From NCBI GenBank assembly GCA_017999915.1, contig JAGNKX010000018.1, positions 1-64,000 on the forward strand: a stretch of 64,000 nt of DNA. Reading direction: 5' to 3'. This document shows positions 40,352 through 58,552 of this stretch, piece by piece (position 1 is the stretch's first letter; the number at the start of each line of letters is the position of its first letter). Under the pieces are notes generated by a model. It was given only the letters and a program-made list of their open reading frames with translations. It had not been told where the DNA came from and ran no database searches. The translations under genes were made by a program, and so were the position numbers. The DNA comes from Spirochaetota bacterium (GTDB lineage: Bacteria; Spirochaetota; UBA4802; UBA5550).

Positions 40352-43321
40352 TCACTGGCCCAGGACCGATTGTATCGCTTCGCGCAATTCATCAAAATGA
40401 TAGGGCTTCATGATCATTCCGTTGAAGCCGTATTCGAGGTAATTGCTCATGACGGGATCATTTGAATAGCCGCTTGAGACGATCACGCGGGCGCCTTCAT
40501 GAAATTCCCTCAGCCGTTTGACCGTTTCCTTTCCCCCCATCCTTCCGGGTATGGTAAGGTCCATGATCACCAGATCGAACGGATTTCCCGATTCAACGGC
40601 CTGTCTGTACTTGTTGAGCGCTTCCTCGCCGTGGAGTGCGCAGGCGACGTCGCAGTGCAGGTATTTCAGCATCTCCGATGCCACGTGAAGGACCATTTCA
40701 TCATCGTCCATCACCAGAATGTGCCCGCGCGTGAAGACATGCTCGCAGGCGACCGGTGACGCTTCCGTAACTGGCATCCTGGACGCGGGGAGATATATTT
40801 CGAAAATGGTTCCCCGGTTGACGCTTGAATCCACCATGATAAGTCCGCCGTGCTTTTTTACGATCGAATAGGAGATGGCGAGGCCGAGTCCGCTTCCGGT
40901 GTTCTTTGTCGAAAAGTAGGGATCGAAGATGTAGGGGAGCTTCTCCCGTGGAATACCGCTTCCGGAGTCGCTGATGGTGATCTTTATGTAATCCCCCTCA
41001 TCCAGGGGGAGGCTGGTGTCGCCGCTCATGCGGTAATTCTGTACCGACAGTCGTATGGATCCCCCGTCGGGCATCGCCTGGCGGGCATTGATGAGGATGT
41101 TATGGATTACCTGGCTTACCTGGCCGGGATCGATATCAGCGTTCCAGATGTCGGGCGGGATTTCGTGGATGAACCTGATGTTCGAGCCGCTCATGACAAA
41201 ATCGGCGGTTTCGCTTATGAGGTCGCTGATCCTGGTGATCTTTCGGATCGGATCGCCCCCGCTGGAGAAGGTGAGGAGCTGCTGTGTCAGGTCCCGCGCC
41301 CTGAGCGCCGCTTTTTCAGCCGTAACGAGCATGTCGTTGCTGTTTTCATTCTTTTTTATCTTTTCGATCGAAAAAGATATGCTCCCGATGATGGCGGTCA
41401 ACAGGTTGTTGAAATCGTGGGCTATCCCCCCCGCGAAGACGCCGAGTGATTCGATTCGCGAGGCTTTGAGCAGGGTTTCCTCCATCATCCTGCGCACCGT
41501 AACGTCGCGGAGCACGAGGACCGCCCCTATTATTACGCCATAGGCGTCCCGTACAGGAGATGAGCTGGCGCTCACAAGGTGCTTGCCCTTGGGCGTTATG
41601 ATCGCGTAATCGCCGTCGATTTCGATCGTACGCCCCTCCGCGAGGGATGAATAGATCGGATTTTCCACATTTTTCCCGCTGTTCGTGTCTGTCATGGGTG
41701 CTATTTCGGATATGGGCATCCCCCGCGAAGAATCCTGGATCCGGCCGGTGATCGTTTCGGCCGCTTTGTTGAGTATGTCGACATTGCCCTTGATGTCGGT
41801 CGTTATGACGCCCTCGCTGAGGGACCGGAGCGTGGTGGAAAGGCGCTCCTTTTCTTCCTCGAGACGGTCGTAGGCCTGGATCAGCTCGCCGTGTGTCCTT
41901 GACACTTCCTTGTTGATAGCTTCGAGCTCTTCATTCTGTGCGTGTATTTCCTGAATCTGTTCCTGGATCATTTGATCGGCTTTTTTCCGATCGGTGATGT
42001 CGAATCCGGAGCCCAGGACGGCCGGCTTTTTGTCGTATTCAATGATCGAGGCGGCGTAATCGAGCCATATGGGTTTGCCGCTTTTATGAAGGGCCATGAA
42101 TTCATATCTCTGCAGCTCGATCTCTCCCTTTTGCCTGTTCAGCCCCCTCTGGATGGTGATCTCTTTGTAGTCAGGATGCACCATGTCCCAGAAATCCATG
42201 GTGCCGAGTTCATCCCTTGAATAACCGGAAATATCAAGAAATGCCTGATTGACATAGCGCAGCTTCGAGCCCTGGATTATAAAGATCGCCGATGGGCTTG
42301 ATTCAGTAAGGGCGCGGAATTTCGATTCGCTCTCCTGGAGCGCGATTTCGGATTTTTTCTTGTCCGATATGTCCGTGATGAGGGCAAGGGCCGCGGGACT
42401 GCCGGACCAGTCAATGCGCACGGCGTTTATCTGGATCCACCTGAGTTCCTTGCTCTTTGTAATGATCCTGATATCGTACAGCTTGGGGACGTCCTTGCCC
42501 ATGAGCCGCTGATTGTGATAGGTGATGATTTTATCCCTGTCGTCGGGATACACGATGTCATAGAATTTCATCCGGGTTATCTCATCGATGGAATACCCGG
42601 TGATCTCGGTGACCATGCTGTTGCTGAATGATATGTTGCCGTCAAAGATGATGAGTATGGCCTCGTTGGCGTTTTCAACGAGATGGCGGTATTTTTCCTC
42701 TGAGGACCGAAGGGCCTCCTCCGCTTTTTTTCTTTCCGATATCTCCAGCAGAAGAAGCTCATTGGCGTTTTTCAGCTTTCGGGTGCGCTCCTCCACAAGC
42801 TCTTCGAGGTTTTCCTGGTACTGCCGTATACTGTCTTCCGTGATTTTCCTTTCGGTGACATCCCTGAAAATGCCTTCAATGAACAAGGGATTTCCCGCGG
42901 TATCGCGAAAAACATGCGAGCTGGTCTCGACAAAGATCGGGGAGCCGTTTTTCTTTTTGAGCCGGACGAGGAAGCTTTTAACAAAGCCGCTCTTCAGTAT
43001 CTTAAGCATGAACCGGTCGCGCTCGTCGTTGTCGTAATATCCCTCATCCGCGATATTCATTTCGGCCATTTCTTCAATGTTTTTATAACCGAGAAGGGAC
43101 GCGCCCGATGGGCTCACGAGGAGGAGGCGGCCCTCCATGTCGGCGCGATAGTACACATCCTGGATGTTGTCGAATATGCTTTTATAGTTCGCCTCGCTTT
43201 CCTCGAGCCTTGTTTTTAATTTTACCAGCTCGGCCCTGGATGACCTGAGCTCGCTGATTTCCGCACGCAGCGTTGTGATTTCATCCAGGAGATCGGATTT
43301 GTTTTTCGTCGTGTCCGCCAT
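40352..43321 (-). CDS. Multi-PAS hybrid histidine kinase
   Basis: A 989-residue cytosolic sensor kinase with no membrane helices. A coiled coil is followed by PAS1 (about 45-165), PAS2 (205-325), PAS3 (330-450), a second coiled coil, and PAS4 (505-620). The HisKA dimerisation domain has H635 in GGIAHDFNNLLTAIIGS, and the HATPase shows QVIHNILINARQAM and SDSGSGIPREKLPYIFDPYF, then GSGLGLAIS. A C-terminal receiver carries phospho-acceptor D921 in LVIMDLTIPGRMGG. The H-box type (GIAHDFNN) is of the HisKA group often found with a receiver. No Hpt or output gene is adjacent. Its upstream neighbour is an orphan HATPase. Confidence 0.92.
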   Translation of the reverse strand: MADTTKNKSDLLDEITTLRAEISELRSSRAELVKLKTRLEESEANYKSIFDNIQDVYYRADMEGRLLLVSPSGASLLGYKNIEEMAEMNIADEGYYDNDERDRFMLKILKSGFVKSFLVRLKKKNGSPIFVETSSHVFRDTAGNPLFIEGIFRDVTERKITEDSIRQYQENLEELVEERTRKLKNANELLLLEISERKKAEEALRSSEEKYRHLVENANEAILIIFDGNISFSNSMVTEITGYSIDEITRMKFYDIVYPDDRDKIITYHNQRLMGKDVPKLYDIRIITKSKELRWIQINAVRIDWSGSPAALALITDISDKKKSEIALQESESKFRALTESSPSAIFIIQGSKLRYVNQAFLDISGYSRDELGTMDFWDMVHPDYKEITIQRGLNRQKGEIELQRYEFMALHKSGKPIWLDYAASIIEYDKKPAVLGSGFDITDRKKADQMIQEQIQEIHAQNEELEAINKEVSRTHGELIQAYDRLEEEKERLSTTLRSLSEGVITTDIKGNVDILNKAAETITGRIQDSSRGMPISEIAPMTDTNSGKNVENPIYSSLAEGRTIEIDGDYAIITPKGKHLVSASSSPVRDAYGVIIGAVLVLRDVTVRRMMEETLLKASRIESLGVFAGGIAHDFNNLLTAIIGSISFSIEKIKKNENSNDMLVTAEKAALRARDLTQQLLTFSSGGDPIRKITRISDLISETADFVMSGSNIRFIHEIPPDIWNADIDPGQVSQVIHNILINARQAMPDGGSIRLSVQNYRMSGDTSLPLDEGDYIKITISDSGSGIPREKLPYIFDPYFSTKNTGSGLGLAISYSIVKKHGGLIMVDSSVNRGTIFEIYLPASRMPVTEASPVACEHVFTRGHILVMDDDEMVLHVASEMLKYLHCDVACALHGEEALNKYRQAVESGNPFDLVIMDLTIPGRMGGKETVKRLREFHEGARVIVSSGYSNDPVMSNYLEYGFNGMIMKPYHFDELREAIQSVLGQ

Positions 43322-43606
43322 GAGTTCTATCCATCAGGTCATGGATATGATAATCCCGGCGGCATGGGTTGAGCCGCAATGGATATCAGATGCGTTATTC
43401 CATGATTAACTATTATATCATCATTAAAACCTTGATCTTGTTAATCAAGAATTATTTAAGAGATTAAATAAATTTGAAAAATGGAAATATCCGAATTTAT
43501 GCGGTTCTGCGCGTATAGTTGAGACCAGATGAAGGGATATGACGACAGGAGATTTAAGATTATCACGGCCTCTGATTTTAAAAACGTATCCGGTGTGGTG
43601 GGGTGG

Positions 43607-44035
43607 TCATGCAACCAGCACTACATTGATGGAATTGCCTTTTTTATTCCATCGTATCGTTCCGATATTATTCAGCAGGCACAGCCCCCTACCGTGAGGC
43701 GAGAAAAAGTCATTGGCCGCTGATTTTTCAAGCTGTGATTCAGGTTTGAATCCGGCCCCTTCATCTTCAATCGTCATGTCCACTTTATCCGAAAAACCAG
43801 TGATGGTAATGATGATTTTCTTTTCAGGATTAAATGAATTCCCGTGACTGATGGCGTTTTCTATGGCTTCGTCAAGGGCAAGCCTGAAGTTGAATTCAGA
43901 TATATCGTGGGCAAGACCGGATCGTTGCAGATTCTCGAAGTACACGAGGGCTTCGGCGATCATTTTTTTTGCTTCTTTTTTATCGCTAAGAATTACCCGC
44001 CTGAAGATCGATGATTGATTTTGTTCGTTTTTCAT
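43607..44035 (-). CDS. Serine-kinase-like HATPase (anti-sigma/RsbW type)
   Basis: A 142-residue stand-alone GHKL ATPase domain. The N box is FNFRLALDEAIENAISHGN, the G1 box EDEGAGFKP and the G2 loop HGRGLCLLNNI. This is the layout of RsbW/SpoIIAB-like regulators, which bind and phosphorylate an antagonist protein or hold a sigma factor. No STAS antagonist or sigma factor is adjacent. It lies upstream of the hybrid kinase on the same strand, separated by 285 bp without other features. Confidence 0.8.
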   Translation of the reverse strand: MKNEQNQSSIFRRVILSDKKEAKKMIAEALVYFENLQRSGLAHDISEFNFRLALDEAIENAISHGNSFNPEKKIIITITGFSDKVDMTIEDEGAGFKPESQLEKSAANDFFSPHGRGLCLLNNIGTIRWNKKGNSINVVLVA

Positions 44036-44228
44036 TTTTATTCAAATTCGCTCTATCATGACCGCTCAATCAAACCACAGGACCTGTTTATGATCGCCGG
44101 CCCATGTTTGAATATACTACTTTCTAATATTAGTGGTCGGCATTTGCGGTTAAGCACTTGAATGTAATATGAACCTGCTTCGGTTCAACTGTTTCCGGGA
44201 AATTTAAGAATTATTTGTGAAAAATGGA

Positions 44229-44274
44229 TTGACAAATATCAAAAAGTTATACTAAAAATACTATATTAGTATAA
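44229..44274 (+). promoter_or_regulatory. TetR promoter with overlapping operator
   Basis: TTGACA (44229-44234) and TAAAAA (44253-44258, 18-nt spacer) form a promoter. Nested inverted repeats cover its -10 region: TTATACTAA (44247-44255) with TTAGTATAA (44266-44274), and ATACTA-TAT-TAGTAT (44258-44272). The position fits autorepression by the TetR protein encoded immediately downstream. Confidence 0.55.
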
Positions 44275-44289
44275 ATAGTTCGTTTGGTT

Positions 44290-44862
44290 ATGACAATGAA
44301 GGTAAATAATAGTAAAATTCACGATAATATTTATGAAAAAACGGAAAAGCTCTTTCTGCAGCATGGCATCAAGGGCTGGAACATGGATACCGTGGCCTAT
44401 GAGTCCGGAATGGCGAAAAATACCCTCTATAAAATTATAGGGACCAAGGAACAGCTTCTGGGGCAGATAATAATATCTAAATTAAAGAAAAATATCGAGA
44501 CGATTGTAGGTATTTTCCAAAGTGAGCCTGATTTCATGAAAGCCGTTACGATCGGCGTCAGGCAGCTGACCCAGAGCATCAGCAGGGACAATCCGCTCAT
44601 GCTGGCCCAGGTGTTCCGCGAATATCCGGCGATCAAAGAGCGGTTTGACGCAATCGCGTCGAAGCTCAGCACCTCGATCCACGACTATCTGAACCAGGCG
44701 AAAAAGTCGGGAATAGTACGGGAGGATATCGATAACGATATCCTGATAAGCTCGGTGACGGCAGTCATCAATCATTATCTTAACGGGAATTTCAAGGGAC
44801 GGGATTTTGAGGAAAGGGTCTATAAATCCCTTACCTACCTGTTGCACGGTATCCTGAAATAG
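44290..44862 (+). CDS. TetR-family transcription regulator
   Basis: 190 residues. An N-terminal TetR HTH (about 10-55) reads EKLFLQHGIKGWNMDTVAYE then SGMAKNTLYKIIGTKEQLLG. A helical ligand-binding domain follows (FMKAVTIGVRQLTQSISRD, LTYLLHGILK). I prefer ATG 44290 or 44296 to an upstream TTG; none has a good ribosome site. It starts right after its putative operator and is 49 nt before the Fe-S gene. I infer that it represses the 44.9-52.1 kb cluster. The ligand is probably a hydrophobic substrate of that cluster. Confidence 0.87.
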   Translation: MTMKVNNSKIHDNIYEKTEKLFLQHGIKGWNMDTVAYESGMAKNTLYKIIGTKEQLLGQIIISKLKKNIETIVGIFQSEPDFMKAVTIGVRQLTQSISRDNPLMLAQVFREYPAIKERFDAIASKLSTSIHDYLNQAKKSGIVREDIDNDILISSVTAVINHYLNGNFKGRDFEERVYKSLTYLLHGILK

Positions 44863-44911
44863 CGCAAATCCTAAAATTTCCATTCATCTTCGCAGTGGAG
44901 GCCATGACGTC

Positions 44912-46234
44912 ATGTCATCAATGTTTAAAGAAGAAACCGTGAAGTATCCCGAACTCAGAGCGCTGGAAAATGAGATAGCCACCTGCTTTCGATGCTCCCT
45001 GTGCAAGATGGTGCCCCTGCCGGTATTTAAAAGCAAAGAATTTTCAACGATCTGCCCGATCAATACCCATTACGCCTTTCACAGCTATTCCGCCTCCGGA
45101 TTCGGCTACATGGCCCTTGCCCTTTCAGAAGGGCGCATAGAGGCAGACAGGACGCTGGCTGATATTGTTTTTTCCTGCCGAACCTGCGGGTATTGCGACA
45201 TGGCTTGCAAGTTCATCATGGAATCGGAGCGTAATGAGGTGAACATGGCCCTCCGGGAAGCTCTTGTCAGGGAGGGACTGGCGCCGGCCGAATACAAGGA
45301 GATGGTTCGGCTACTGAAAGAAACGGGGAGTCCCGCCGGAGCGCCATCTGGAAGCGCCGGTGAGTGGGCATACGGCCTTGATCTCAAGAAGCTGCCGGAG
45401 CAGAAGGCGCAGGTGCTCCTCTATGGCGGCTGCATGACAAGGGGCGACAAAAAGGCCATGGTATCGGCGAGAAAACTGGCGAAGCTCCTGGTCAATGCCG
45501 GCGTTGACGTGGGGATCCTGGGCGCTGACGAGCTTTGCTGCGGCCTTCCGGCTCACTGGGCGGGTTTTAAAGATGATTTTGTACAATGCGCCGGTAAAAA
45601 CGCGAGCACCTTGGACCGGTCCGGAGTGAAGACGATCGTAACCGTCTGCGGCGCCTGCCTCGGGACGGCCCGGGCCCTGTACCCACGGTATGGGATCACA
45701 CCACGGACAGAGGTGGTCCATGCCACTGAGTTACTGGAGCGTCTCATACGGAAAAAGAAGATCCGCCTCCCTCGGCCCGTCAACATCAAGGCCACCTATC
45801 ATGATCCCTGTTACCTGGGACGGCGATCGGAGCCCTATGAGGAATGGAAGGGCGAGGAAAAGACCGTCTTCGGCCAGATGAAATACTTCGATCCTCCCAA
45901 GAAAATACGGTATGGCACCGAGGGGGTCTTTGACGCGCCCCGGAATATTTTAAAATCGATCAAGGAGCTATCGTTCAGGGAAATGTTCCGGATCAGGGAG
46001 TATTCCCACTGTTGCGGCGGGGGCGGCGGACAGTCACCGCTCTACGACGAAATGTCTTTGCGGGCGGCCCGGGACCGCGTCGGTGAGGCCCGCGCCGTGG
46101 GCGCCGACTATTTGGTAACAGCCTGTTCCCATTGCAAGACCCACCTGGGAAAAGCGTGCGGGGATAATGATGATAAAGGCATGCGGGTGGTCGATATCAT
46201 CGATATCGTGTACCAGGCAGCAGGTCTTGAATAG
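44912..46234 (+). CDS. CCG-domain iron-sulfur oxidoreductase (GlcF/HdrD-like)
   Basis: 440 residues. The N-terminal dicluster ferredoxin is degenerate at its first site (CFRCSLCKMVPLP with a later CP) and clear at the second (CRTCGYCDMACKF). Two cysteine-rich CCG domains follow: LLYGGCMTRGDK with ELCCGLPAHWAG, and YHDPCYLGRRSE with YSHCCGGGGGQSPL. Such proteins carry electrons from FAD-linked dehydrogenases (GlcDE, LldE, GlpAB) to the quinone pool or to heterodisulfide-type sites. Two FAD-binding-4 proteins are encoded just downstream, so this is their likely partner. It has no membrane anchor. Confidence 0.87.
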   Translation: MSSMFKEETVKYPELRALENEIATCFRCSLCKMVPLPVFKSKEFSTICPINTHYAFHSYSASGFGYMALALSEGRIEADRTLADIVFSCRTCGYCDMACKFIMESERNEVNMALREALVREGLAPAEYKEMVRLLKETGSPAGAPSGSAGEWAYGLDLKKLPEQKAQVLLYGGCMTRGDKKAMVSARKLAKLLVNAGVDVGILGADELCCGLPAHWAGFKDDFVQCAGKNASTLDRSGVKTIVTVCGACLGTARALYPRYGITPRTEVVHATELLERLIRKKKIRLPRPVNIKATYHDPCYLGRRSEPYEEWKGEEKTVFGQMKYFDPPKKIRYGTEGVFDAPRNILKSIKELSFREMFRIREYSHCCGGGGGQSPLYDEMSLRAARDRVGEARAVGADYLVTACSHCKTHLGKACGDNDDKGMRVVDIIDIVYQAAGLE

Positions 46235-46247
46235 GAGGGCCCGTTCC

Positions 46248-47720
46248 ATGATAACAGATAAAAACCTTCAACTGCTATCCGATCACAACTCGGTGGAAAC
46301 CTCCCCGGAGGCCCTTCGAAGATATGAGCTTTACAATCCTCTCATCGAGGGGCACCGTGCGCCCCGGTGCGCCATAAAACCGAAAGACGTCGGACAGCTT
46401 CAGCGCGTCATCCGCACGGCAAAGGATGAATCCTTAGGGCTGGTGCCCGTGTCCTCGGAAGGGCCCCATCTGAAAGGAGGCACAGCCTGCGGGGCCGACC
46501 ATGCTGTTGTGGACCTGTCCCACTGGAAGAGCATCCCCTGGGTCAATAAAAGGAACAGAGTCTGCATTGTCGAGCCGGGCGTCACCTACGATGAGCTGAA
46601 CCGGTTCCTGGAAAAAGAAGGGATGACCCTGCCGACGCCCCTGGCGCCGCGGAGCGGCAAAAGCGTCCTGGCCTCTGTCATCGACCGGGAGCCCCACATA
46701 TGGCCGAGGATGCAGTGGGACATGCAGGACCCGGTGGCGAGCACGGAATTCATCTATGGGACCGGCGAGCTCTTCCGGAGCGGCGCGGCAGGCGGCCCCG
46801 GAACGCTGGAGGAGCAGAGACGGTCGAAGGGCGCCCAGAAAATGCCGATGGGCCCCGGACAGTCCGATTTCCAGAGGATACTCATCGGCGCCCAAGGCTC
46901 CATGGGGATCATGACCTGGATAAGCCTTCGGACCGAGCTGCTTCCCTCCGTGGAGCGGCCCATGGTCATCGCCTCGGACCGTCTCGACAGGATCGTGGAA
47001 TACGTGTACGAGGCCCAGCGCCCCTGGCTGGGGGAACAGACCTTCATCCTTAACCGCACCGCTGCAGCGATGCTTATGACCTGGGCCGGGCCAGAGAACT
47101 ATGGCCGGGTCAGGGGTTCCATTCCGGAATATATCTGCATGCAGAACATCGCCGGGTTCGAGCGGCTTCCGAAGGAGAGACTGCAATACCAGTTCGAGGA
47201 ATTGAATGACATGGCCGGCGGCAACGGCCTCAGGTTCGCCGAATCGGCCGGGGAGGTGGACGCCGCGGAGCTGTTGAAAGCGGCCCGGACACCCTGCGGC
47301 ATTTCGGACTGGCGCCACGCCATCATGGGCCACTGCCTTTCTGTCTTCTTCCTTTCCCTGCTCAATAAATCAGCAGAATATATCCGAATTGTCCAGGAAG
47401 CTGCCGCGGCAGCAGGCATAGACCGCGAGCGGATAGGCGCGTATCTCCAGCCCGTGGTGCAGAACCATGCCTGCCACATGGAATTCATGATACCATTCAA
47501 TCCCCAATCGGCCGGCGAGATTGAGACAATGAAAAGGCTGGAGGCCGATTTGACAGAGCGGCTCATGAAGGAAAAGGCCTTTTTCAGCAGGCCCTACGGT
47601 TCGGCCTCCCGCAGGGTCTTTGACAATAACCCGGGCAATACGGAGCTCCTGAAGATAATCAAGGAAATGTTCGATCCGGGGAACGTTCTCAATCCCGGAA
47701 AATTCGGGCTCACGGTGTAA
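46248..47720 (+). CDS. FAD-linked oxidase (VAO/PCMH superfamily), first of two
   Basis: 490 residues from ATG 46248 (AGGAGGG 10-15 nt upstream). The N-terminal FAD-binding domain has AIKPKDVGQLQRVIRTAKDE, VVDLSHWKSIPWVNKRNRVC and IVEPGVTYDELNRFLEKEGM. The pyrophosphate-loop region is unusual (PVSSEGPHLKGGTACG). The C-terminal substrate domain ends in MFDPGNVLNPGKFG, typical of this superfamily. It begins 13 nt after the CCG gene and is surely in the same operon. It probably oxidises an alcohol or hydroxyacid, with electrons leaving through the Fe-S partner. Confidence 0.83.
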   Translation: MITDKNLQLLSDHNSVETSPEALRRYELYNPLIEGHRAPRCAIKPKDVGQLQRVIRTAKDESLGLVPVSSEGPHLKGGTACGADHAVVDLSHWKSIPWVNKRNRVCIVEPGVTYDELNRFLEKEGMTLPTPLAPRSGKSVLASVIDREPHIWPRMQWDMQDPVASTEFIYGTGELFRSGAAGGPGTLEEQRRSKGAQKMPMGPGQSDFQRILIGAQGSMGIMTWISLRTELLPSVERPMVIASDRLDRIVEYVYEAQRPWLGEQTFILNRTAAAMLMTWAGPENYGRVRGSIPEYICMQNIAGFERLPKERLQYQFEELNDMAGGNGLRFAESAGEVDAAELLKAARTPCGISDWRHAIMGHCLSVFFLSLLNKSAEYIRIVQEAAAAAGIDRERIGAYLQPVVQNHACHMEFMIPFNPQSAGEIETMKRLEADLTERLMKEKAFFSRPYGSASRRVFDNNPGNTELLKIIKEMFDPGNVLNPGKFGLTV

Positions 47721-47783
47721 GGTTAAATACCAGCGCAGAATGAGTATATTGTAATACGATACTTTCATTACCAGGATAGGGCC

Positions 47784-49514
47784 ATGTTAACATCTGATGA
47801 ACTGGAAGAGCTGCGGCAGATCGTCGGTCCCCAATGGGTGAGGGATGATCCCGCCACCAGGGACGCGTACGCCATCTATTATAACTCGTCGTCCCTGAAC
47901 AGGGAGGACAAGCTCTGGACCAGCCGCCCCGCGGCGGTCATCATGCCCCGGACGGCGCAGGAGATATCGGCGCTGACGAAGTTCTGCAACAGGAAGGATT
48001 TCATGCTCAAGCCCTTTTCCACGGGCTGGATCACCTCCTCGGCGCCAGGGAGCCGCAAGACCATCATCCTCGACCTGAAGCGCATGGACAGCATAATCGA
48101 CATAGATGTGAAGAACCAGATCGCCATCGTGGAGCCCTACGTGAGGGCTATAGACCTGCAGACGGAGCTCTGGAAGGTGGGACTCAACGTCCATGCCGTT
48201 TCGTGCGGCGGCAATCATTCCATCCTTGCGTCTGCGGCCGCCGCCTGGGGATACGGCATCACCGGGGCGTCCATGGGATTCCAGGCGCGGAACATGCTCG
48301 GCGTCGAATGGGTCATGCCCTCCGGGGAGGTCGTCACCCTGGGGAGCGCCGGGGACGGCGCCGAATGGTTCAGCATAGACGGGCCGGGCCCGGGGGTGAG
48401 GGGCCTCATCCGCGGGTTCCAGGGCACCTTCGGCGGCCTCGGCACCTTCACCAAGGCCGCCATCAAGCTCTACCGCTGGAACTCGGACGCCGAGTACGAA
48501 GTGCACGGCGGGTCTCCCAAGTACGTGCTCAACCGCGACCTGCCCAACATCGGCATCTTCCTCTGCACGTTTTCATCGAAGCAGCAGATAACGGACGCGG
48601 GGTACAAGCTGGGCGAGGCCGAGTGCAACTACGCTGATTTCAGGATGCCCGCCTTTTTCGTGGCCCTGGGGTTCACCGACAATAATCTTGAATTGAAGAA
48701 GCTCTGGTCCACGGGGATATTCCAGAACCTGGCCCGGTACATGATCACGGTGTGCGTTCACGGTCATTCCAAAAAGGAATTCGAATGGAAGGTGAAGGCC
48801 CTCAAGGAAATAATAAAAGAGACCGGTGGCATCACGTTCCCCATGGTGCAGATCCCCATCCCGGTCTTCTCCCTGATGAAGCCCCTGTTCAAGATGATGA
48901 AGGACCCGGTGAAGGTCATGAGGCGCATACCCTTCATGCAGAAGATAATGGATTCTATCGTGCTCAGCGAGGAGCAGCGCCTGAAGCTCCTCACCACGGC
49001 CTTCTTTATCCTGCTGCGCCACGCCAACAACACCCAGGGCGGTTTCAGGGCGTCGTCGGGCATGTTCACGTCCGTGGGCGCCTTCGATACCTGGGACATG
49101 GGCTTTGAGCAGGCCGAGTATATCGCCGGGGTCAAAAAGTCTGCCATCGAAAAGGGGCTGATCGTGGACGACGGCGGCGATCTCGGCTGCGGCGGTACCT
49201 TCGATTCCGGTCACCTCGGCTACATTGAGGGCATCGGGGAATACTCCACCAACAATCCCGATTCGAGGAAGGCCACCAAGGAGATCGTGGCCGAGTCGCT
49301 CCGGGGGACCATCGAGAAAGCACTGGGGGTGCCCATCGCCGCCTTCGGCGGGCCCATGAACAGGATGTTCGGCCCCCATTGCTACAATTATCATGAAATG
49401 ATCATGAAGATCAAGGAAAAGCTCGATCCTAATTCATCATACGACTCGTGGACCTACAGCGGTCCGTCGGAAAAGGCTTTTCCTGATGAAAAAGAGGATT
49501 ATACGTTTTTTTAA
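47784..49514 (+). CDS. FAD-linked oxidase (VAO/PCMH superfamily), second of two
   Basis: 576 residues. The FAD domain has AVIMPRTAQEISALTKFCNR, FMLKPFSTGWITSSAPGSRK, IAIVEPYVRAIDLQTELWKV and ILASAAAAWGYGITGASMGF. The latter segment is followed by MPSGEVVTLGS and a GPGPGVRGLIRGFQGTFGGL stretch reminiscent of VAO/4-cresol-dehydrogenase enzymes. A hydrophobic insertion PIPVFSLMKPLFKMMKDPVK may touch the membrane. It differs strongly from the first oxidase and lies 63 nt downstream. A GlcDE-like heteromer with the CCG protein is one reading; two independent substrates is another. Confidence 0.83.
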   Translation: MLTSDELEELRQIVGPQWVRDDPATRDAYAIYYNSSSLNREDKLWTSRPAAVIMPRTAQEISALTKFCNRKDFMLKPFSTGWITSSAPGSRKTIILDLKRMDSIIDIDVKNQIAIVEPYVRAIDLQTELWKVGLNVHAVSCGGNHSILASAAAAWGYGITGASMGFQARNMLGVEWVMPSGEVVTLGSAGDGAEWFSIDGPGPGVRGLIRGFQGTFGGLGTFTKAAIKLYRWNSDAEYEVHGGSPKYVLNRDLPNIGIFLCTFSSKQQITDAGYKLGEAECNYADFRMPAFFVALGFTDNNLELKKLWSTGIFQNLARYMITVCVHGHSKKEFEWKVKALKEIIKETGGITFPMVQIPIPVFSLMKPLFKMMKDPVKVMRRIPFMQKIMDSIVLSEEQRLKLLTTAFFILLRHANNTQGGFRASSGMFTSVGAFDTWDMGFEQAEYIAGVKKSAIEKGLIVDDGGDLGCGGTFDSGHLGYIEGIGEYSTNNPDSRKATKEIVAESLRGTIEKALGVPIAAFGGPMNRMFGPHCYNYHEMIMKIKEKLDPNSSYDSWTYSGPSEKAFPDEKEDYTFF

Positions 49515-49596
49515 GTGAATTATGTAGGCAACCTCCGCCTTCTGATTACATTTGTAAATCAATATTTGCATATGACTTATAACGCAGGTGAATGCT

Positions 49597-50673
49597 ATGA
49601 GCGAATATGTGAGTCCGAAAGTGAAAGAGGGTTGGACCGGCCCCGGCAGGAGCGATGGCGATATACGCCCCCTGGAACCGGCGGATGACGCCCTCCATAT
49701 AGAAATCGGCAAGAGGGGCCTGTACGAGTGGTGGTACTTTGACGCCCACCTTGACGGAGGACACACCATCGTGGCGTTCTTCTACGCGGCAAATCCCAAC
49801 CCGGGCATGTCAGGCAAAAGCGGAGTGGAAATCGTACTCCTCAGGCCGGACGGTAAGAAAACCCAGGTCTTCATACCATACGGTGCCCGTGATTTTGCCG
49901 CATCGAGGGAAAAGCCGGAAGTAACGATCGGCGCCAACTACATGAAGGTCCGCAAAGGCAAAAACGGGCTGCCGGAATATGAGATATTCATCAAGGAGAA
50001 GGACCTCGGCTGCCATCTCATTTATAATGCAGAGGTCAACGGTTGGAAGCCGGGGAGCGGCTACTCCCATTTCGGGGACATGGGCTACTTCGCCTGGGTC
50101 ATTCCTTTCGCGAGGGCGTCGGTGAAAGGGACCGTGACCGACGTCGATTCAGTCATGAAGGTGAGAGGGATCGGTTACCATGACCACAACTGGCTCAACT
50201 TCCAGTTCGCGCGTATAATCAACTACTGGATGTGGGGACGTATCTATTCGAAGCGCTACACCGTTTCCTACGCCTACATCCAGTGCAACAAAAAAATGGA
50301 TAATCACACGGTTAAGGTCCTGATGGTGGCTGACGGAAAGAACGTCATCGCCAGCACCGGCGATTTTCATTTCCAACAGGACGAGCATGTTTATAACCAG
50401 AAGGCAGGGCACCGCTATCCAAAGAACGTTACCATAGCAATGACGGGTAAGCTCAAGGTAACGCTTTCCGTTGAAAAGGTGCTGGAGGCGGTGGACATGC
50501 TTGAACAATTCAACCCGCTCCTCAGGATTCTGGCGAAGATGATCGGCGGGATCAAGCCCGGGTATTTCAGGCTTCTTTCCAGTTTCACCGTCGCCGTGAC
50601 CGGTAAGGGAAAGACCATACAGGAGAAGGGAACAACGCTGCACGAGATCGTGCTGTTGAAGCCGTCAGAATAA
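49597..50673 (+). CDS. CrtC/AttH-like lipocalin-fold protein
   Basis: 358 residues, no signal peptide. The opening segment YEWWYFDAHLDGGHTIVAFF (about 45-64) and YHDHNWLN (near 190) are the signatures of hydroxyneurosporene synthase (CrtC, carotenoid 1,2-hydratase) and the related AttH-like double-lipocalin fold. The rest is beta-rich. Related proteins hydrate or bind terpenoid or other lipophilic compounds. No carotenoid genes are nearby. Its place between FAD oxidases and a FadL porin suggests a role on a hydrophobic substrate. AGGTG precedes ATG 49597; an in-frame GTG lies 9 nt upstream. Confidence 0.7.
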   Translation: MSEYVSPKVKEGWTGPGRSDGDIRPLEPADDALHIEIGKRGLYEWWYFDAHLDGGHTIVAFFYAANPNPGMSGKSGVEIVLLRPDGKKTQVFIPYGARDFAASREKPEVTIGANYMKVRKGKNGLPEYEIFIKEKDLGCHLIYNAEVNGWKPGSGYSHFGDMGYFAWVIPFARASVKGTVTDVDSVMKVRGIGYHDHNWLNFQFARIINYWMWGRIYSKRYTVSYAYIQCNKKMDNHTVKVLMVADGKNVIASTGDFHFQQDEHVYNQKAGHRYPKNVTIAMTGKLKVTLSVEKVLEAVDMLEQFNPLLRILAKMIGGIKPGYFRLLSSFTVAVTGKGKTIQEKGTTLHEIVLLKPSE

Positions 50674-50783
50674 GCATATCAGCGTACATGAAAGATAGAG
50701 GCAGGTGCCGGTAGGAAGAATATGAAAATTGTCTGTTAAAGCGGGATTTGATTATTTCTTTATCTATTATAGGGGGGTCTTTC

Positions 50784-52094
50784 ATGAAGAAGATACATGT
50801 TCTGTCCATGGTTTGCGCTTTTGTCGTGGCCGCTTCCGCCGCTCTCTTCGCCGGGAGCGCCGAGGAGAACACCAACCAGAGCGCCGAGTACATGAAAACG
50901 CTTAACCGCGGCGCGTCGACCGATGCCGACGCATCATTTTATAATCCCGCCGGCACGGCCCTCATGGAGGAGGGGGCATACATCTATCTCAGCGCCCAGT
51001 ATATTTTACTGCCTATCGAAATCCGCGGACACAGCCTTTCGCGTAGCGTCTACCGCGGGGAAAAAACCTCCTACTGCATGCCGAACATCCATGTTGTCTA
51101 CAACAAGCACAACGCCGGCGGCGGATCAGGCGATCTTGCCTGGTCCTTCAGCGGGATGGCCCTCGGCGGCGGCGGGTTTGGGAAGTATAACCAGGGCCTA
51201 TCCTATATCGACAATACCCTTTTTCTTCTAAAAGATGTATTTAATTCATTCTTCACATCCGCCGGCATTCCCTATTCCATAGGGCCACTTATCACCTCGA
51301 AGTTCGAGGGCTCCTCGGTCTATTATTCGGCCATGACCAACCTTGCCTACACGGTCCTTGATGACAGGCTGGCTTTTTCCCTGGGATACCGCTTCATCCT
51401 CGGATCGGGAACCTACGACGCGAAGCTTTACAGCAACGGATTCCTCATTCCGCTGGGGGGGGATTTCCATGCGACCCAGAGCGGCCTGGCCCACGGCGTC
51501 ATAGTCGGCCTGAGCGCAAAGCCGGTCGATGACCTCACCATCGGTTTCAAGTACGAATATAATTCACCGCTCAAGATGAAGACAAACGCTAGCGGTTACT
51601 ACATAGTCGGCCTTGTCGATTCCAGCCTGATGGATGGCGGGGAGGCCCACCGCCAGATTCCGATGAACCTGAACCTGGGCCTTGCCTACCGGGTCAAGGG
51701 GTTACAGTTCTCCTGGACCTATTCACATTACCTGTGCCATATTGCCCAGTGGAAGGGTAAAGAGAAAAGTTACTATGACGGATACGAGGTCGGGATGGGC
51801 CTTGATTACACCTTCTCCACGGCGCCGCTGAATATCGGCTGCGGCTATGTATTCACCAATGGCGGCGCCAGGCCGTCGGGCCAGAGCCAGATAGCTGAAT
51901 TGCCCAACGGCCATACCTTTGGAGTAGGCCTTTCATACACATACGCTAAGATCGTTAAACTAACAGTAGCCCTCGGATACATATATTTCGAAACTGTTGA
52001 TATCAACAAGGGGACCATGCTGAAGTTCTTGCCTGCCCGTTTTTATAAAAAGGGTTATGATGCGGCAATCGGCGCTGAGTTCAAGGTCATTTAG
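50784..52094 (+). CDS. FadL/OmpP1/TodX-family outer-membrane transporter
   Basis: 436 residues. A signal peptide covers residues 1-23 (KKIHVLSMVCAFVVAASAAL). The N-terminal plug starts with NRGASTDADASFYNPAGTAL (about 41-60), the FadL signature region, then a 14-strand barrel with typical aromatic girdles (YTVLDDRLAFSLGYRFILGS, GFKYEYNSPLKMKTNASGYY). The family imports long-chain fatty acids, aromatics and other hydrophobic molecules through the outer membrane. The ribosome site AGGGGGG precedes ATG 50784. It is the last gene of the TetR-Fe-S-FAD-CrtC-like cluster, which suggests the cluster's substrate enters here. Confidence 0.87.
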   Translation: MKKIHVLSMVCAFVVAASAALFAGSAEENTNQSAEYMKTLNRGASTDADASFYNPAGTALMEEGAYIYLSAQYILLPIEIRGHSLSRSVYRGEKTSYCMPNIHVVYNKHNAGGGSGDLAWSFSGMALGGGGFGKYNQGLSYIDNTLFLLKDVFNSFFTSAGIPYSIGPLITSKFEGSSVYYSAMTNLAYTVLDDRLAFSLGYRFILGSGTYDAKLYSNGFLIPLGGDFHATQSGLAHGVIVGLSAKPVDDLTIGFKYEYNSPLKMKTNASGYYIVGLVDSSLMDGGEAHRQIPMNLNLGLAYRVKGLQFSWTYSHYLCHIAQWKGKEKSYYDGYEVGMGLDYTFSTAPLNIGCGYVFTNGGARPSGQSQIAELPNGHTFGVGLSYTYAKIVKLTVALGYIYFETVDINKGTMLKFLPARFYKKGYDAAIGAEFKVI

Positions 52095-52534
52095 CACCTC
52101 GGGACCACATCCGGGTACGGGGATCGTCTGGGATACGATTTAATTCAGGGTTCATCCCAATTTTGGGATGCGCTCTGAATATCACCGCGGAAGTGATGAA
52201 TTATTGTATGATCTCTCCATGAATGGGGATAACCGGACCATCGATGGTTATCCCCTTTCCGATGATGTTCACCTAACTGACATAATAATCCTCATGAAAG
52301 CGATTCCTTATACACAATTCATCGCTCGAGCCAGTGATGACTCTTTTTTTAAGGCATAATAATTTCAGGCTTACAGCTCCGGAACATAACTCCTGAGGTT
52401 TTCGCGCAATTCAATAAAAATTACTGGCAAGTAATATTTTTAGTATTGTATTATTAATAGATAGTGCTATATTGTATAGAGAATGCCATAAGTAAGGATT
52501 GCTGACATATCTATAAAAAGCGAATGATTGTCAT
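52095..52534. other. Intergenic region after the FadL gene
   Basis: A 440-bp spacer. An 18-bp palindrome CATCCCAA-TT-TTGGGATG lies at 52153-52170 and a hairpin terminator at 52225-52258. The rest is AT-rich. A 63-codon frame at 52168-52359 runs through both structures, has no ribosome site, and I do not consider it a gene. Confidence 0.55.
52225..52258 (+). terminator. Possible terminator of the FadL cluster
   Basis: Stem GGGGATAACC/GGTTATCCCC around an 11-nt loop, followed by only three T. It is 131 bp after the FadL stop codon. Confidence 0.45.
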
Positions 52535-55500
52535 ATGATGGCCCATTGTAATCGCCGTGCTGTTGTGTATTCCTGGCCTGCCCGCATTGGTCTTACGATT
52601 GCATTGTTGATAATGGGCGCCTGCGCTCCTTCCCGCGGCTCTGACCCCGCACATCCCCGCGCCATCCGTGGGATAATCGACCTTCGTGGGTATGATTTTA
52701 CCGGGAACGGCGCCGCCATACTCTCCGGCGAATGGGAATTTCACTGGAAGAAACTGCACACTGAAGTATCTCCCGATACCGGGCCGTCTTTCATAAAGGT
52801 TCCTGACCGATGGAGAGACAGCATTGTCAACGGCATGGCGCTTTCCGGCCATGGCTACGGAACGTATCGCCTGAAAATTAAACTGCCGGCGTCAGTCTCA
52901 AATCTCGCGATTCGGTTTCCCGATGTTGAAACGGCCTACAGTCTCTATGCCAATGGACGAAGGATCGGCGGTGTCGGGACAGTGACCACGGACGGACGGT
53001 CCGATGACTGGCGCTTTGAACCGCGCGTCTATTCCCTTCCTGAAGCCGGGGATACGCTGGATCTGGTCGTTGAGGTTTCCAACTATGTGTACAAGGGAGG
53101 AGGCCTGACGAGGGATATCCAGCTGGGACCCGAGCCGGCCCTTCACAAAGCCTGGGAACGCGAGGCCTTTCTTGAATATTTTATGCTCGGCGGCATGATT
53201 CTTATCGGTTTGTACCATCTCGGTTTTTTCATGATACGGCGCCGCGACTATTCAGCCCTTTATTTCAGCCTGTTCTGCATTATTCTCGGCGTGCGGGGGA
53301 TGCTCGTCGGGGAAAGGCTGCTCAGTACGGCCTATCCTGCCGTACCTTTTGAGTATTTTTTAAAAATGGATGTTCTCACTATCTTTCTGCCCGTGCCGCT
53401 GTTCCTCCTGTACCTGTTCGAGATATTCCCCGCTGAAAGTCCCCGGAAGCTGAGAGCTCTATTCATCTTACCGGGATTCCTGTTTTCCCTGTTCGCGCTG
53501 GTCACTCCGGCCCGGATCTTCCACCATGCCATAGACTGGTATAACGGCGTATTTGCGATCTCAGTCCTTTTAACGGTATTGATCACCGCCAGGGCCGTGA
53601 AACAGGGCAGGGACGGCTCGGTGGTTTTCATCCTCGGCATCGCAATCCCCATCGCCGCCCTGGTAAACGATATTCTCCGCACACTGTATATCATACAGTC
53701 GCCGAACATCGTCTCCTTCGGATTCCTTGCCTTTACCATGTGCCAGGCATACATAATCGCCCTTCGTTTTTCACGTTCCCGCGATCAAATGGAAATAATG
53801 TCCCATCAGCTGGAGGCTTTCAGCAAAAGCCTTGAGATCAGGGTCGATGAGCGGACGGAAGAGCTTGCCGAGGAAAAGACACGGCTTGCCCTTCGAAACG
53901 AGGAGATCGAGCGGAGTGAAAAGAGGTTCCGCGACCTGGTGGACCTGCTCCCCGTCGGCGTCTATGAATCCGACGGCTCGTACAAAATAACCTACGCGAA
54001 TCGCGCCGCCGCCGAAATATTCGGATATGATCTGGATGAATTGAAGAGCGGCAACATCACGACCTTTGACATGCTATCTCCAGATTCTCGGGATGATGCA
54101 GTAGAAATAAGGAAGAGCATCAAGCCGGCATCACCGATCTTGCGACTTGAGCACATGGCCAGGCGCAAGGACGGCTCGATTTTTCCGATGGTTGTCAGCG
54201 CATGCCTGATCGATCCGGCCGAACCGGCGAAGGGCACACGAGGCGTCATCATCGATGTCAGCTCTACAAAGCGCGCGGAGATGATAATGCGCGCCAGGGT
54301 CGACCTGATGGAATATGCAGTTGAACATAACCTTGATGAACTGCTGCAGAAAACGCTGGATATCGTGGAAACGCTGACCGACAGCCTTGTGAGTTTCTAT
54401 CATTTCGTGGAGCCGGACCAGAAGACTCTCTCTCTCCAGGCATGGTCCACCAGAACGGTCAGGGAGTTCTGCCGGGCCGAGGGGAAGGGCCTCCATTATG
54501 GCATTGACCAGGCCGGCGTTTGGGTAGACTGCGTCCACGAGCGGCGGCCGGTGATCCATAACGATTACGCCGCTCTTGCCAACCGGAAGGGGCTGCCGGA
54601 GGGCCATGCGCCTGTGGTGCGTGAGCTGGTCGTACCCATCCTCAGGGGAAACATCATCGTGGCCATACTGGGCGTGGGCAACAAGGCCGTTGATTACACG
54701 AAAGAGGACGTGGAGGTCACGGAATACCTTGCAGATATCGCCTGGGAGATCGTCGAGCGGAAGCGCGCTGACGACAGGCTCAGGGAGAGCGAGGAAAAGT
54801 ACCGCCTTATCACGGAAAATATGGACGACACCATATGGCTCATGGATATGAATCTCCAGACAACCTTCATAAGCCCGTCAGTAAGCCGCAAGCGAGGCTT
54901 TACTCTTGAAGAGCTACAGTCGTTAACCATAGATAAGCACCTGACGCCGGCATCCCTGGAAGCCGCGCTGGCTGTGATTGCCAGGGAAATGACGCCGGAG
55001 ATGCTGGGGGATCCCAATTATACTATCACGGTCGCCATGGAGCTCGAATTCTACTGTAAGGACGGAAGCACGTTCTGGAGCGACAACACCATGTCCGTGA
55101 TTCGTGATGAGGCGGGAAAGCCCATCGGCATCATGGGGGTCGGACGCGATATCACGGAGCGCAAGAAGGCCGAGGAAGCCCTGGCCGTATCCCAGAAGAA
55201 TTTTGCCACGTTCTTCAATACCATCGAGGACCTCCTATTCATACTCGATATGGAAGGGAAGATCCTCCACGTGAACGATACCGTCATTAAACGGCTCGGC
55301 TATTCTCCCGAGGAGCTCCAGGGCCAGAGTGTTCTCCTGGTGCACCCGCCTGACCGCCATGAAGAGGCCATGACCATCATAACAGCGATGCTGAACGGAA
55401 AGGCCGACCTGTGTCCCGTTCCGGTCATGACAAAAACGGGGATGCAGATACCTGTTGAAACCCGGGTGGTGGTGGGCGAATGGAACGGCAGACCGGCCCT

Positions 55501-58500
55501 CTTCGGCGTCACCAAGGATATATCAAAGCTCAAGCTTTCCGAGGAGAAGTTTTCCCACGCCTTCCACACCAATTCGACTCTTATGGGTATTTCGCGTATC
55601 TCTGACGGAATATACCTGGATGTCAACGAGTCTTTCCTCAAAAACTTTGGATTTACCAGGGAGGAGGTGATCGGCAGGACCTCCCAGGAGCTTGGCATCT
55701 TCGCGGATTATGAAGACCGGGAGCGGGTACGCCGGGAGTTCGAAACAAACGGTAACATCCGAAACGTGGAGATGAGGATCCGCCGCAAGGATGGCACGCT
55801 TCGCATCGGCCTGTTATCGGCCGATCCGATCATGGTTGGCGCGGACAGGTGCTGGCTCACAACCATGGCGGATATCACTGAGCGGAAAGAGGCCGAGGAG
55901 GCGTTGAAGGAAAGCGAATCGTACAACAAGGTGCTCTTTTCCGATTCGCGTATAGCCCTGATTGTTCTGGACCCTGAAACCGGACGGTTCCTTGACTGCA
56001 ATGACGCGGCGGTTCGCATCTATCGAATGAATAGTAAGGATGAAGTGATCGGGAAAGTCCCTCTTGACATGTCTACAACAACCCAGTATGATGGAAGCGA
56101 TTCGAGACTTGCCGCTCAATGGAATGTCAAGCGGGCCCTGTCTCAAGGTTCGCACCTGTTCGAATGGCGTCACCAACGTCCCGACGGCGAGGTATGGGAC
56201 GGCGAGGTGCACCTCATGACGTTCCGCCACAAGGGTAAAACGATGCTGCAGTTCAGCGTTCAGGACATAACGGCGCGGAAAGTAGCGGAGCGTGAGCTGG
56301 TCAAATCGAAAGAGGAAGCCGAGGCCGCAAACCGCGCCAAGTCGGAGTTCCTGGCGAACATGAGCCACGAGATCAGGACCCCGATGAACGCCATAATTGG
56401 ATTCACACACCTGATGGGGCGGACCGACCTCGCGCCGGTTCAGCGCGATTACTGCTCCAAAATTCAGGGCGCGGCGCGCATGCTCATGGGCATCATCAAC
56501 GATATCCTTGATTTTTCAAAAATTGAGGCAGGGAAGCTGGCGATCGAGTCCATTGATTTTGACCTGAATGACATCCTGGTGACCATCGCCAATACCCTCT
56601 CCTATGCAGCGGAGGAGAAGGGACTGGAATTGCTCTTTTACATCGCACCGGACGTGCCGTTCAGCCTGAAGGGAGATCCCCTCAGGATGCAGCAGGTGCT
56701 TTTTAATCTTATTCATAACGCGATCAAGTTCACCCAGAAGGGAACGGTAACCCTGAAAATTGAAATGCAGAACAGGATTTTCGACCCTGATATTGCAAAG
56801 TTAAAATTCCGGATCATTGATACCGGGATCGGTCTTACGGAGGATCAGCAGGCGACCATATTCAAGTCCTTTACCCAGGCCGACACCTCCATTACGCGCC
56901 GCTATGGCGGGACCGGACTCGGTCTTGCCATCTGCAAGCGCCTGGTTGAGCTTATGGGCGGGGATATCGGCTTGATAAGCAGGGCGGGCGAAGGCAGCGA
57001 ATTTTACTTTAACCTGTCACTGCATGTCAGCCGCATGACGGTGCCTGACAAGGAGCCATTCACGGGTGAAAAGCCGGAAGTGGTGGTGGCGGATGATAAT
57101 CTCGGCTCCCTGGAGATACTCAGGGGATATCTTAGCACAATGGGCTTCCCGGTAATAACGATGCAATCCGGAGAGGAGACGATAAGGTATCTCAAGGAAA
57201 GGGGATCGGCGACCCCCCTTGTCCTTATCATTGACTGGAGGATGCCGGTAATGGACGGCATTGAGACCATACAGCGGATTCGGCATGATCCCGCCATTGG
57301 CGGCATATCCTCAATTATAATGATATCCGCCTATAATCTTGATGAAGTGAAGGAACAGACGACGCTGCTGGGGGTTGACGCGCTGCTAGCAAAGCCGGTG
57401 AGCCCTTCCACATTGCTTGACGCGCTTTCCCAAGTCATGAATTTTAGATCGAAGCCGCGAATCTCCGCCGTGCGGTCTTCCGCCGCGTTCCCTCTGCCCT
57501 CGTTCCAGGGGAGGCGCATTCTCCTGGTGGAGGACAACGCCATAAACCGCGAAGTGGCTATCAGAATGCTGGAAGATACCGGCATGTCCGTCGACATAGC
57601 GGAGAACGGTGTCGAGGCCATCCAGAAGGTCGCATCGGAGATATACGATCTCGTCTTTATGGATGTGCAGATGCCTGAAATGGACGGGTTTGAGGCGACA
57701 CGGACCATACGTTCTGACGCTAAATATAACGATCTGCCAATTATCGCCATGACCGCTTACGCCATGAGCGGAGACCGCGAGCGGTGCATTGAAGCGGGCA
57801 TGAATGACCATATGTCAAAGCCCTTTGACCCGGACCAATTCTACGCCATATGCAGGAAATGGATGCCCGAACGGACCCACATCGACGGCACGGTTCCGGC
57901 AACACAAACGGAAAGGAGCCCTGATGACCTGAGTTTAATCATGGGGTTGCCGGGCATCGATGTCCATTACGCGATATTGCATTTTTCCGGGAGAACTGAT
58001 ATTCTTCCTGATATCATAAGGGAATTCTGCGATATGTACGCCGATGTCAGGGAGCGCCTTGATTCCTTCATGGCATCGAAGGACACTGACGGCCTCAGGA
58101 AGTTCGCCCACAGCATGCGCGGGGCGGCCGGCACCGTCGCGGCGATCAGGGCGATGGATACGGCGGCGGCCCTGGAGGAATGCATCATCGATGGCAGGAT
58201 CGAAGAGATCGGCGGGCATGTCGGGCGGTTCATATCGGCCATGGAGGAAGTGCTTCAGAGCGGGCCGATCCTTAAATCGCGGATGGAAGCCTATTTTAAA
58301 GAAGAGGAACAGATGCCCGGGGATGACCGGCGGGACCTGGATGCGGACATTGCAATACTTGCATCCCTTCTCGAACAGCGCAGCTTCGGGGCCGTGGACC
58401 AGATCCGGAAAATCAAGAAGCGGTTTCCAGGCGCCCGGAGCGATACGATCAGGGAGATAGAAACAATGGTCAACAGGTTTGATTACCGCGGGGCCCTTGA

Positions 58501-58552
58501 AAAACTGAGAGACGCCGGCGGGGCCATACCCGGCGGAAGTGACATGAAATGA
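52535..58552 (+). CDS. Giant hybrid histidine kinase (7TMR-DISM, PAS/GAF, HisKA, 2x REC, Hpt)
   Basis: 2005 residues. A signal or lipobox-like start ([10 protein letters not shown], Cys30) is followed by a periplasmic DISMED2-type jelly roll (about 45-185, [12 protein letters not shown]), a 7TM region (190-400) and a coiled coil. Then come PAS1 (455-575), GAF (590-735), PAS2-PAS5 (755-1255), and HisKA with H1278 in [19 protein letters not shown]. The HATPase shows [14 protein letters not shown] and [19 protein letters not shown]. Receivers carry D1567 and D1710, and an Hpt domain has H1859 (AHSMRGAAG). This is a complete internal His-Asp-His relay. It overlaps the GGDEF regulator by 4 nt (ATGA), which is its likely target. 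The carbohydrate-like DISMED2 fold suggests an extracellular ligand. Confidence 0.93.

Follow-up and report, generated by a model that had tools for sequence, protein, structure and literature searches.

A four-gene module in the genome of a Spirochaetota bacterium, encoding an Fe-S protein with two CCG domains (the CCG protein), two flavoproteins (FAD-A and FAD-B) and a CrtC-like double-lipocalin protein (LIPO), is well supported as one functional unit that is conserved across phyla and domains. The module lies in the window, by which we mean the whole 64,000-nucleotide stretch of DNA that was analyzed, between genes for a TetR-family regulator and a FadL-type porin. As the first-pass annotation had described, these genes stand together on one strand: six open reading frames (ORFs) were found on the forward strand at 44290-52094, with intergenic gaps of 49, 13, 63, 85, and 110 nucleotides, in order. 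We consider it roughly 45% probable that they form a TetR-controlled, O2-independent unit, catabolic or detoxifying, for a hydrophobic compound with an isoprenoid-type tail or prenyl group. More tentatively, and with less confidence, the module may represent an undescribed O2-independent machine for oxidizing isoprenoids or prenyl compounds that is common to Asgard archaea and sediment bacteria; a CrtC-type hydratase/lyase would act before a CCG-wired two-flavin enzyme, and one hydratase lineage is combined with two flavoprotein subfamilies. The reaction, its direction, the substrate class, complex formation, and the electron acceptor of the module are features that we infer.

The unit was proposed as coherent from the window alone, and this held when co-occurrence was checked in relatives across phyla and domains. 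An alignment search with FAD-B among named genomes gave matches in Dehalococcoidia metagenome-assembled genomes (MAGs; 82-88% identity), in Desulfatibacillum alkenivorans (62%), and, near 50% identity, in Myxococcota, a Methanomassiliicoccales MAG, and Asgard archaea. The genes for the CCG protein, FAD-A, FAD-B, and LIPO were found together in Dehalococcoidia, in Methanomassiliicoccales (on a partial contig), and in Asgard archaea. Two Dehalococcoidia loci (L054 and L057) have the order of the window, TetR-CCG-FADA-FADB-LIPO, with identities of 58-59% for TetR, 71-72% for CCG, 70% for FAD-A, 83% for FAD-B, and 64-71% for LIPO; the set is nearly complete in L055 and L066, and L060 and L171 carry CCG-FADA-FADB-LIPO. 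Complete Asgard operons are ordered FADA-CCG-FADB-LIPO (L203, L204, and L206), preceded in L204 by genes for a FixC-like protein and a small ferredoxin. A natural fusion of FAD-A and FAD-B, in a single reading frame of about 1070 codons, follows LIPO and CCG in L061 (Hodarchaeota), L064 (Heimdallarchaeota), and L062 (a Chloroflexi MAG); such a fusion argues strongly that these flavoproteins work together.

LIPO, searched for independently, was present in 46 of 227 Asgard genomes and in 6 of 294 from the Dehalococcoidia class, and FAD-B or CCG directly adjoined it in 18 of the 20 Asgard loci inspected. Among genomes of the host's phylum, 7 of 393 had a member of the wider FAD-B family, and 3 of 296 had a close LIPO orthologue. 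In most Asgard LIPO loci the partner FAD-B is only about 31-33% identical to that of the window; one LIPO lineage thus pairs with two divergent FAD-B subfamilies, which argues for a functional link or shared pathway rather than mere co-inheritance. A unit found repeatedly in several phyla and in two domains does not reflect chance clustering, and that explanation was rejected. LIPO genes were also seen in other settings. A genome of the same order as the host (G036) has a lone LIPO orthologue (L200:8522-9598; 67% identity) with no flavoprotein module nearby. Two Dehalococcoidia MAGs (G393 and G395; e.g., L153 and L154) have up to 11-14 LIPO matches each, some of them in tandem with FAD-B paralogues, corrinoid-methyltransferase-like genes, and a gene for a BaiCD-like flavoenzyme, and other Dehalococcoidia copies adjoin SCP2-type thiolases, BKACE, and CoA-transferases (L157 in G394).

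Pfam and NCBIfam models were used to assign domains in the six proteins. LIPO matched Svf1_C (5.5e-9) and, weakly, CrtC (2e-3), its scores with the CrtC family models being below cut-off (19.2 versus 22.5 bits for CrtC and 14.9 versus 400 for NF045922). A PHROGs search and a sequence search of LIPO in the PDB gave nothing useful, and fold comparison was needed. The predicted structure (predicted local distance difference test [pLDDT] of 88.8; predicted template-modeling score [pTM] of 0.88) has the double-lipocalin fold of the CrtC/AttH/kievitone hydratase superfamily, and the nearest solved folds were kievitone hydratase (7a0q, E 8e-14, TM about 0.6), AttH, fungal Diels-Alderases, and 25-phosphosteroid lyase. 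Of these, kievitone hydratase adds water to a prenyl double bond (PMC5805349), and the delta-24 alkene that arises when the cholesterol side chain is degraded anaerobically (pathway in PMC11061730) is formed by 25-phosphosteroid lyase; both enzymes act on isoprenoid side chains, which supports an isoprenoid reading of LIPO. As a reference we used the genuine CrtC of Roseobacter litoralis, encoded on the photosynthesis plasmid next to crtD. The residues D268, Y266, W241, W283, and W285, which are essential or catalytic in CrtC (PMC4717167, PMC12402844), align to D195, Y193, W166, W210, and W212 of LIPO (residue 1 being the codon at 49600), and all of these were invariant in 13 of 13 LIPO sequences. 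Since the catalytic residues of CrtC are invariant, with only H239 differing, carbocation chemistry on a branched alkene by LIPO is likely, as judged from the sequences and the model. The likeness to CrtC, which had been taken early on as a hint of an isoprenoid substrate, was strengthened by these comparisons.

LIPO therefore shares with CrtC and kievitone hydratase its fold and catalytic residues but differs in having Phe in place of His239, in the absence of carotenoid genes nearby, and in being the regular neighbor of a two-flavin oxidase in anaerobes. The anaerobic sterol side-chain pathway of Sterolibacterium is similar in that its 25-phosphosteroid lyase has the same fold as LIPO. Its delta-24 desaturase and the limonene dehydrogenase CtmAB are, like the FAD-A/FAD-B pair, two-subunit flavoproteins for O2-independent oxidation of isoprenoid C-H bonds; however, they are described as belonging to another, NAD(P)/FAD-type flavoprotein family, and no CCG partner is described there (PMC11061730).

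The Fe-S protein matched the CCG model twice (3e-24) and Fer4 weakly, and it contains CxxCxxC motifs at 25 and 89 and CCG motifs at 209 and 367. Both flavoproteins matched FAD_binding_4 above the Pfam cut-off (1e-14 and 4e-17) and have structural relatives of the vanillyl-alcohol oxidase/p-cresol methylhydroxylase (VAO/PCMH) fold; they are homologous to each other over their full length (profile-profile probability of 100, 16% identity). The best PDB match of FAD-A by profile was p-cresol methylhydroxylase (E 9e-32). Its R448 aligns to R474 of that enzyme and was invariant in 25 FAD-A sequences, and the adjacent position 447 is Ser in most aligned rows. The model of FAD-B (pLDDT 79) resembles both D-lactate dehydrogenase and vanillyl-alcohol oxidase in fold. 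A helical insert, present in the window-type subfamily and absent from other FAD-B rows, could be a membrane- or substrate-facing element. When fused and unfused flavoproteins were aligned jointly, the N-termini of unfused FAD-B were misplaced.

The core trio of FAD-A, CCG protein, and FAD-B is common in anaerobes. Among 85 related loci, CCG relatives were found in 64, EtfA/EtfB in 16-18, and a FixC-like protein in 24. These Etf and FixC-like neighbors support a route from flavin through the CCG protein and electron transfer flavoprotein (ETF) to quinone, and the electrons in the relatives probably pass via ETF and FixCX. The host itself has a second trio on another contig (C2:255031-259421; L039:8031-12421), 31-39% identical and followed by genes for EtfA, EtfB, and a FixC/geranylgeranyl-reductase-like protein; another genome (G016, L040) is arranged likewise. 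Related trios in the host's phylum also adjoin aldehyde:ferredoxin oxidoreductase or aldehyde dehydrogenase, and at two loci in that phylum (L041:8291-15845 and L042:4875-13073) the trio has genes for a corrinoid protein and a URO-D methyltransferase as neighbors, together with pterin-binding and B12-activation genes in L042. The gene content of this last type suggests action on methoxylated compounds, and members of the trio family may differ in substrate.

For the window cluster, we propose that FadL would bring a lipophilic compound over the outer membrane, the substrate having an isoprenoid-type branched tail or a prenyl group, possibly on a phenolic ring. The invariant Asp of LIPO would protonate a trisubstituted C=C bond, or the protein would run the reverse elimination, with its Trp residues steadying a tertiary carbocation that would yield a tertiary alcohol or a moved double bond. 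A FAD-A/FAD-B heterodimer could then dehydrogenate or hydroxylate the adjacent activated (allylic or benzylic) carbon and hand its electrons to the CCG Fe-S protein, from which they would reach an ETF/quinone acceptor; TetR would derepress the operon once the compound is present. Isoprenoids, sterols, and prenylated quinones make up a major, persistent share of buried organic matter, and to our knowledge few O2-independent ways to attack them are known. With genes linked across domains and catalytic residues that can be tested, the enzyme set offers a handle on the feeding of uncultured Asgard archaea and Dehalococcoidia, and a large, mostly unannotated FAD-A/CCG/FAD-B oxidoreductase family is grouped here as one enzyme type. 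No description of this gene combination was found in the collection of open-access papers that was searched; the module appears undescribed, in agreement with the first-pass annotation, which knew of no such pathway.

Other substrates have to be weighed against an isoprenoid. The anatomy of the module is that of the glycolate oxidase GlcDEF, to which it had been likened: two distant FAD_binding_4 flavoproteins are encoded together with a protein bearing two Fe-S motifs and two CCG domains, and D-lactate dehydrogenase is among the top fold matches of FAD-B, both of which would suit an oxidase of a small polar D-2-hydroxy acid. The anatomical likeness stands, but membership in the family was rejected. 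The GlcD model gave 43.6 and 57.9 bits (cut-off, 567.9), GlcE 17.6 bits (cut-off, 284), and GlcF 17.2 bits (cut-off, 333); the HxGDGN motif, a 2-hydroxyacid/metal motif in the FAD-oxidase_C domain of D-2-hydroxyacid dehydrogenases, is absent from both flavoproteins, and FAD-oxidase_C itself is marginal in FAD-A and absent in FAD-B. The co-conserved CrtC-like protein, the local FadL, and the ETF/FixC neighbors seen in relatives are further differences, and this already disfavored explanation has hardly any probability left. Anaerobic oxidation of lignin-type phenols (4-alkylphenols, vanillyl/coniferyl-type alcohols, and eugenol) by a p-cresol-methylhydroxylase-like FAD-A/FAD-B pair is a stronger contender, although somewhat unlikely; the CCG protein would replace cytochrome c, and the lipocalin would only handle the quinone-methide or product. 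The closest solved profile relatives are p-cresol methylhydroxylase, vanillyl-alcohol dehydrogenase/oxidase, and eugenol oxidase, the Arg474 equivalent is invariant, and the neighbors of related modules in the host's phylum (corrinoid methyltransferase sets, aldehyde:ferredoxin oxidoreductase, and aldehyde dehydrogenase) fit such a pathway. However, Arg474 is the only residue of the phenolate pocket with an invariant equivalent, Tyr95 and Tyr473 not being conserved; the window cluster has no methyltransferase, and no cytochrome c motif (CxxCH) occurs in any frame of 43601-52600. In addition, the sets linked to methyltransferases have FAD-B proteins from a subfamily with about 35% identity and no LIPO nearby. 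A true p-cresol methylhydroxylase was rejected on the missing pocket tyrosines and cytochrome, and the module further differs from that enzyme and from vanillyl-alcohol oxidase, whose FAD domain fold it shares, in its two unequal, sometimes fused flavoproteins and its CCG partner.

A straight-chain hydrophobic substrate (a long-chain alcohol or an alkane-derived or ether-lipid intermediate), which the lipocalin would carry without catalysis, is an unlikely alternative for which the adjoining FadL/TodX porin, the close FAD module in the alkane/alkene degrader D. alkenivorans (L058), and the LIPO paralogues near acyl-CoA dehydrogenases and thiolases (thiolase, BKACE, and CoA-transferase being confirmed) can be cited. 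Some relatives of the LIPO fold, such as yeast Svf1, bind lipids, which also suits a carrier. The invariant Asp/Tyr/Trp set of CrtC would be needless for a pure carrier, however, and the Desulfatibacillum module is without LIPO. It is very unlikely that the unit serves in Asgard archaea to remodel isoprenoid lipids or quinones belonging to the cell itself, with the bacterial copies as transferred derivatives. LIPO is widespread in Asgard archaea, bacterial LIPO sequences are nested among theirs in a midpoint-rooted tree, and the FixC-like neighbor scores best, below cut-off, against the geranylgeranyl-reductase superfamily; but the absence of LIPO from most Asgard genomes speaks against a housekeeping role, and the copies in the host and in Dehalococcoidia come with a TetR of their own and adjoin transporters (FadL in the host, major facilitator superfamily proteins in L055 and L057), fitting an exogenous substrate. 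Several observations also count against an isoprenoid or prenyl substrate as we propose it. The counterpart of CrtC His239 is an invariant Phe164, and thus the exact reaction of CrtC may differ from that of LIPO; the LIPO fold also serves pericyclases and does not imply hydration; and the fold of FAD-B cannot tell D-lactate dehydrogenase from vanillyl-alcohol oxidase. LIPO is often missing from FAD modules, and the oxidase may therefore have a broader role, the modules of L041 and L042, next to corrinoid methyltransferases, pointing to methoxylated aromatics for some members. Finally, the window cluster has no prenyl-specific enzyme or CoA ligase.

The regulator matched TetR_N above cut-off and has an operator-like palindrome, TTATACTAAAAATACTATATTAGTATAA, upstream (44247-44274). 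Alone, the palindrome was marginal for this AT-rich stretch, being equaled in 4.8% of Markov simulations (p about 0.05). However, the pattern TACTAA-N(11-12)-GTAnAAATAGTT is kept upstream of orthologous tetR genes in the Dehalococcoidia loci L054, L057, and L066 and in L201, from the host's own family, and this conservation argues that the operator is real; the operator proposed earlier was thereby borne out in four relatives. The TetR orthologues of L054 and L057 occupy the same position as in the window, one is also present in L201 (59%), and the regulator with its predicted operator is conserved across two phyla. L201 (9163-10507; G015) has this intact tetR beside a chimeric ORF that joins, in frame, the first ~20 residues of the CCG protein to the last 208 of LIPO. 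It is an apparent remnant of the cluster, as if CCG, FAD-A, FAD-B, and the start of LIPO had been deleted, or a collapse in the assembly.

The porin belongs to the FadL family (Toluene_X/FadL, 2.8e-10; 39.7 bits versus a cut-off of 29.7). It was found beside the module in the host cluster only and was absent from the other loci examined, and in L055 and L057 two major facilitator superfamily (MFS) genes follow LIPO in its place. FadL was therefore rejected as a core member. Of the original interpretation, the gene set as a unit was upheld and the guess of a terpenoid, sterol, or long-chain alcohol substrate was upheld in part, but the inclusion of FadL in the core was not.

In the trees, the window FAD-B groups with Dehalococcoidia at full support. 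The host and Dehalococcoidia proteins share 83% identity, against only about 76% for the 16S genes, which makes horizontal transfer the simplest account and, from these comparisons, a likely one. Misbinned Dehalococcoidia contigs are an unlikely explanation, the module being present in at least five MAGs from several lakes. One MAG (G394; L212, L216, and L220) contains several differing 16S genes, 71-76% identical, which indicates a mixed bin or divergent 16S copies with insertions.

Features of the cluster and their positions in the window.
Feature	Position	Strand	Remarks
Probable TetR operator	44247..44280		28-bp palindrome TTATACTAAAAATACTATATTAGTATAA plus conserved right extension (...GTATAAATAGTT)
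TetR-family regulator	44290..44862	+	TetR_N 7e-6; start ATG 44290 or 44296
CCG Fe-S protein, 440 aa	44912..46234	+	Two CCG domains; predicted electron hub
FAD-A, VAO/PCMH-fold flavoprotein, 490 aa	46248..47720	+	FAD_binding_4; invariant R448-P449
FAD-B, VAO/LDHD-fold flavoprotein, 576 aa	47784..49514	+	FAD_binding_4; helical insert ~353-420
LIPO, CrtC/AttH/kievitone-hydratase-like double-lipocalin protein	49597..50673	+	Predicted isoprenoid hydratase or lyase; Svf1_C
FadL/TodX-type outer-membrane porin	50784..52094	+	Toluene_X; local accessory

The cluster is flanked on the reverse strand by genes for a large multi-PAS hybrid histidine kinase (40352-43321) and a small, anti-sigma-like HATPase_c_2 protein (43607-44035) and on the forward strand by an ORF of 2005 amino acids (52535-58552) that, judged from its sequence only, is PAS/hybrid-kinase-like. 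The host genome encodes several Omp85 proteins, from which we infer that the host is diderm. Its probable placement among the spirochaetes is supported by a gene for FlaA, a flagellar sheath protein known from spirochaetes, which was found in 0 of 14 control genomes.

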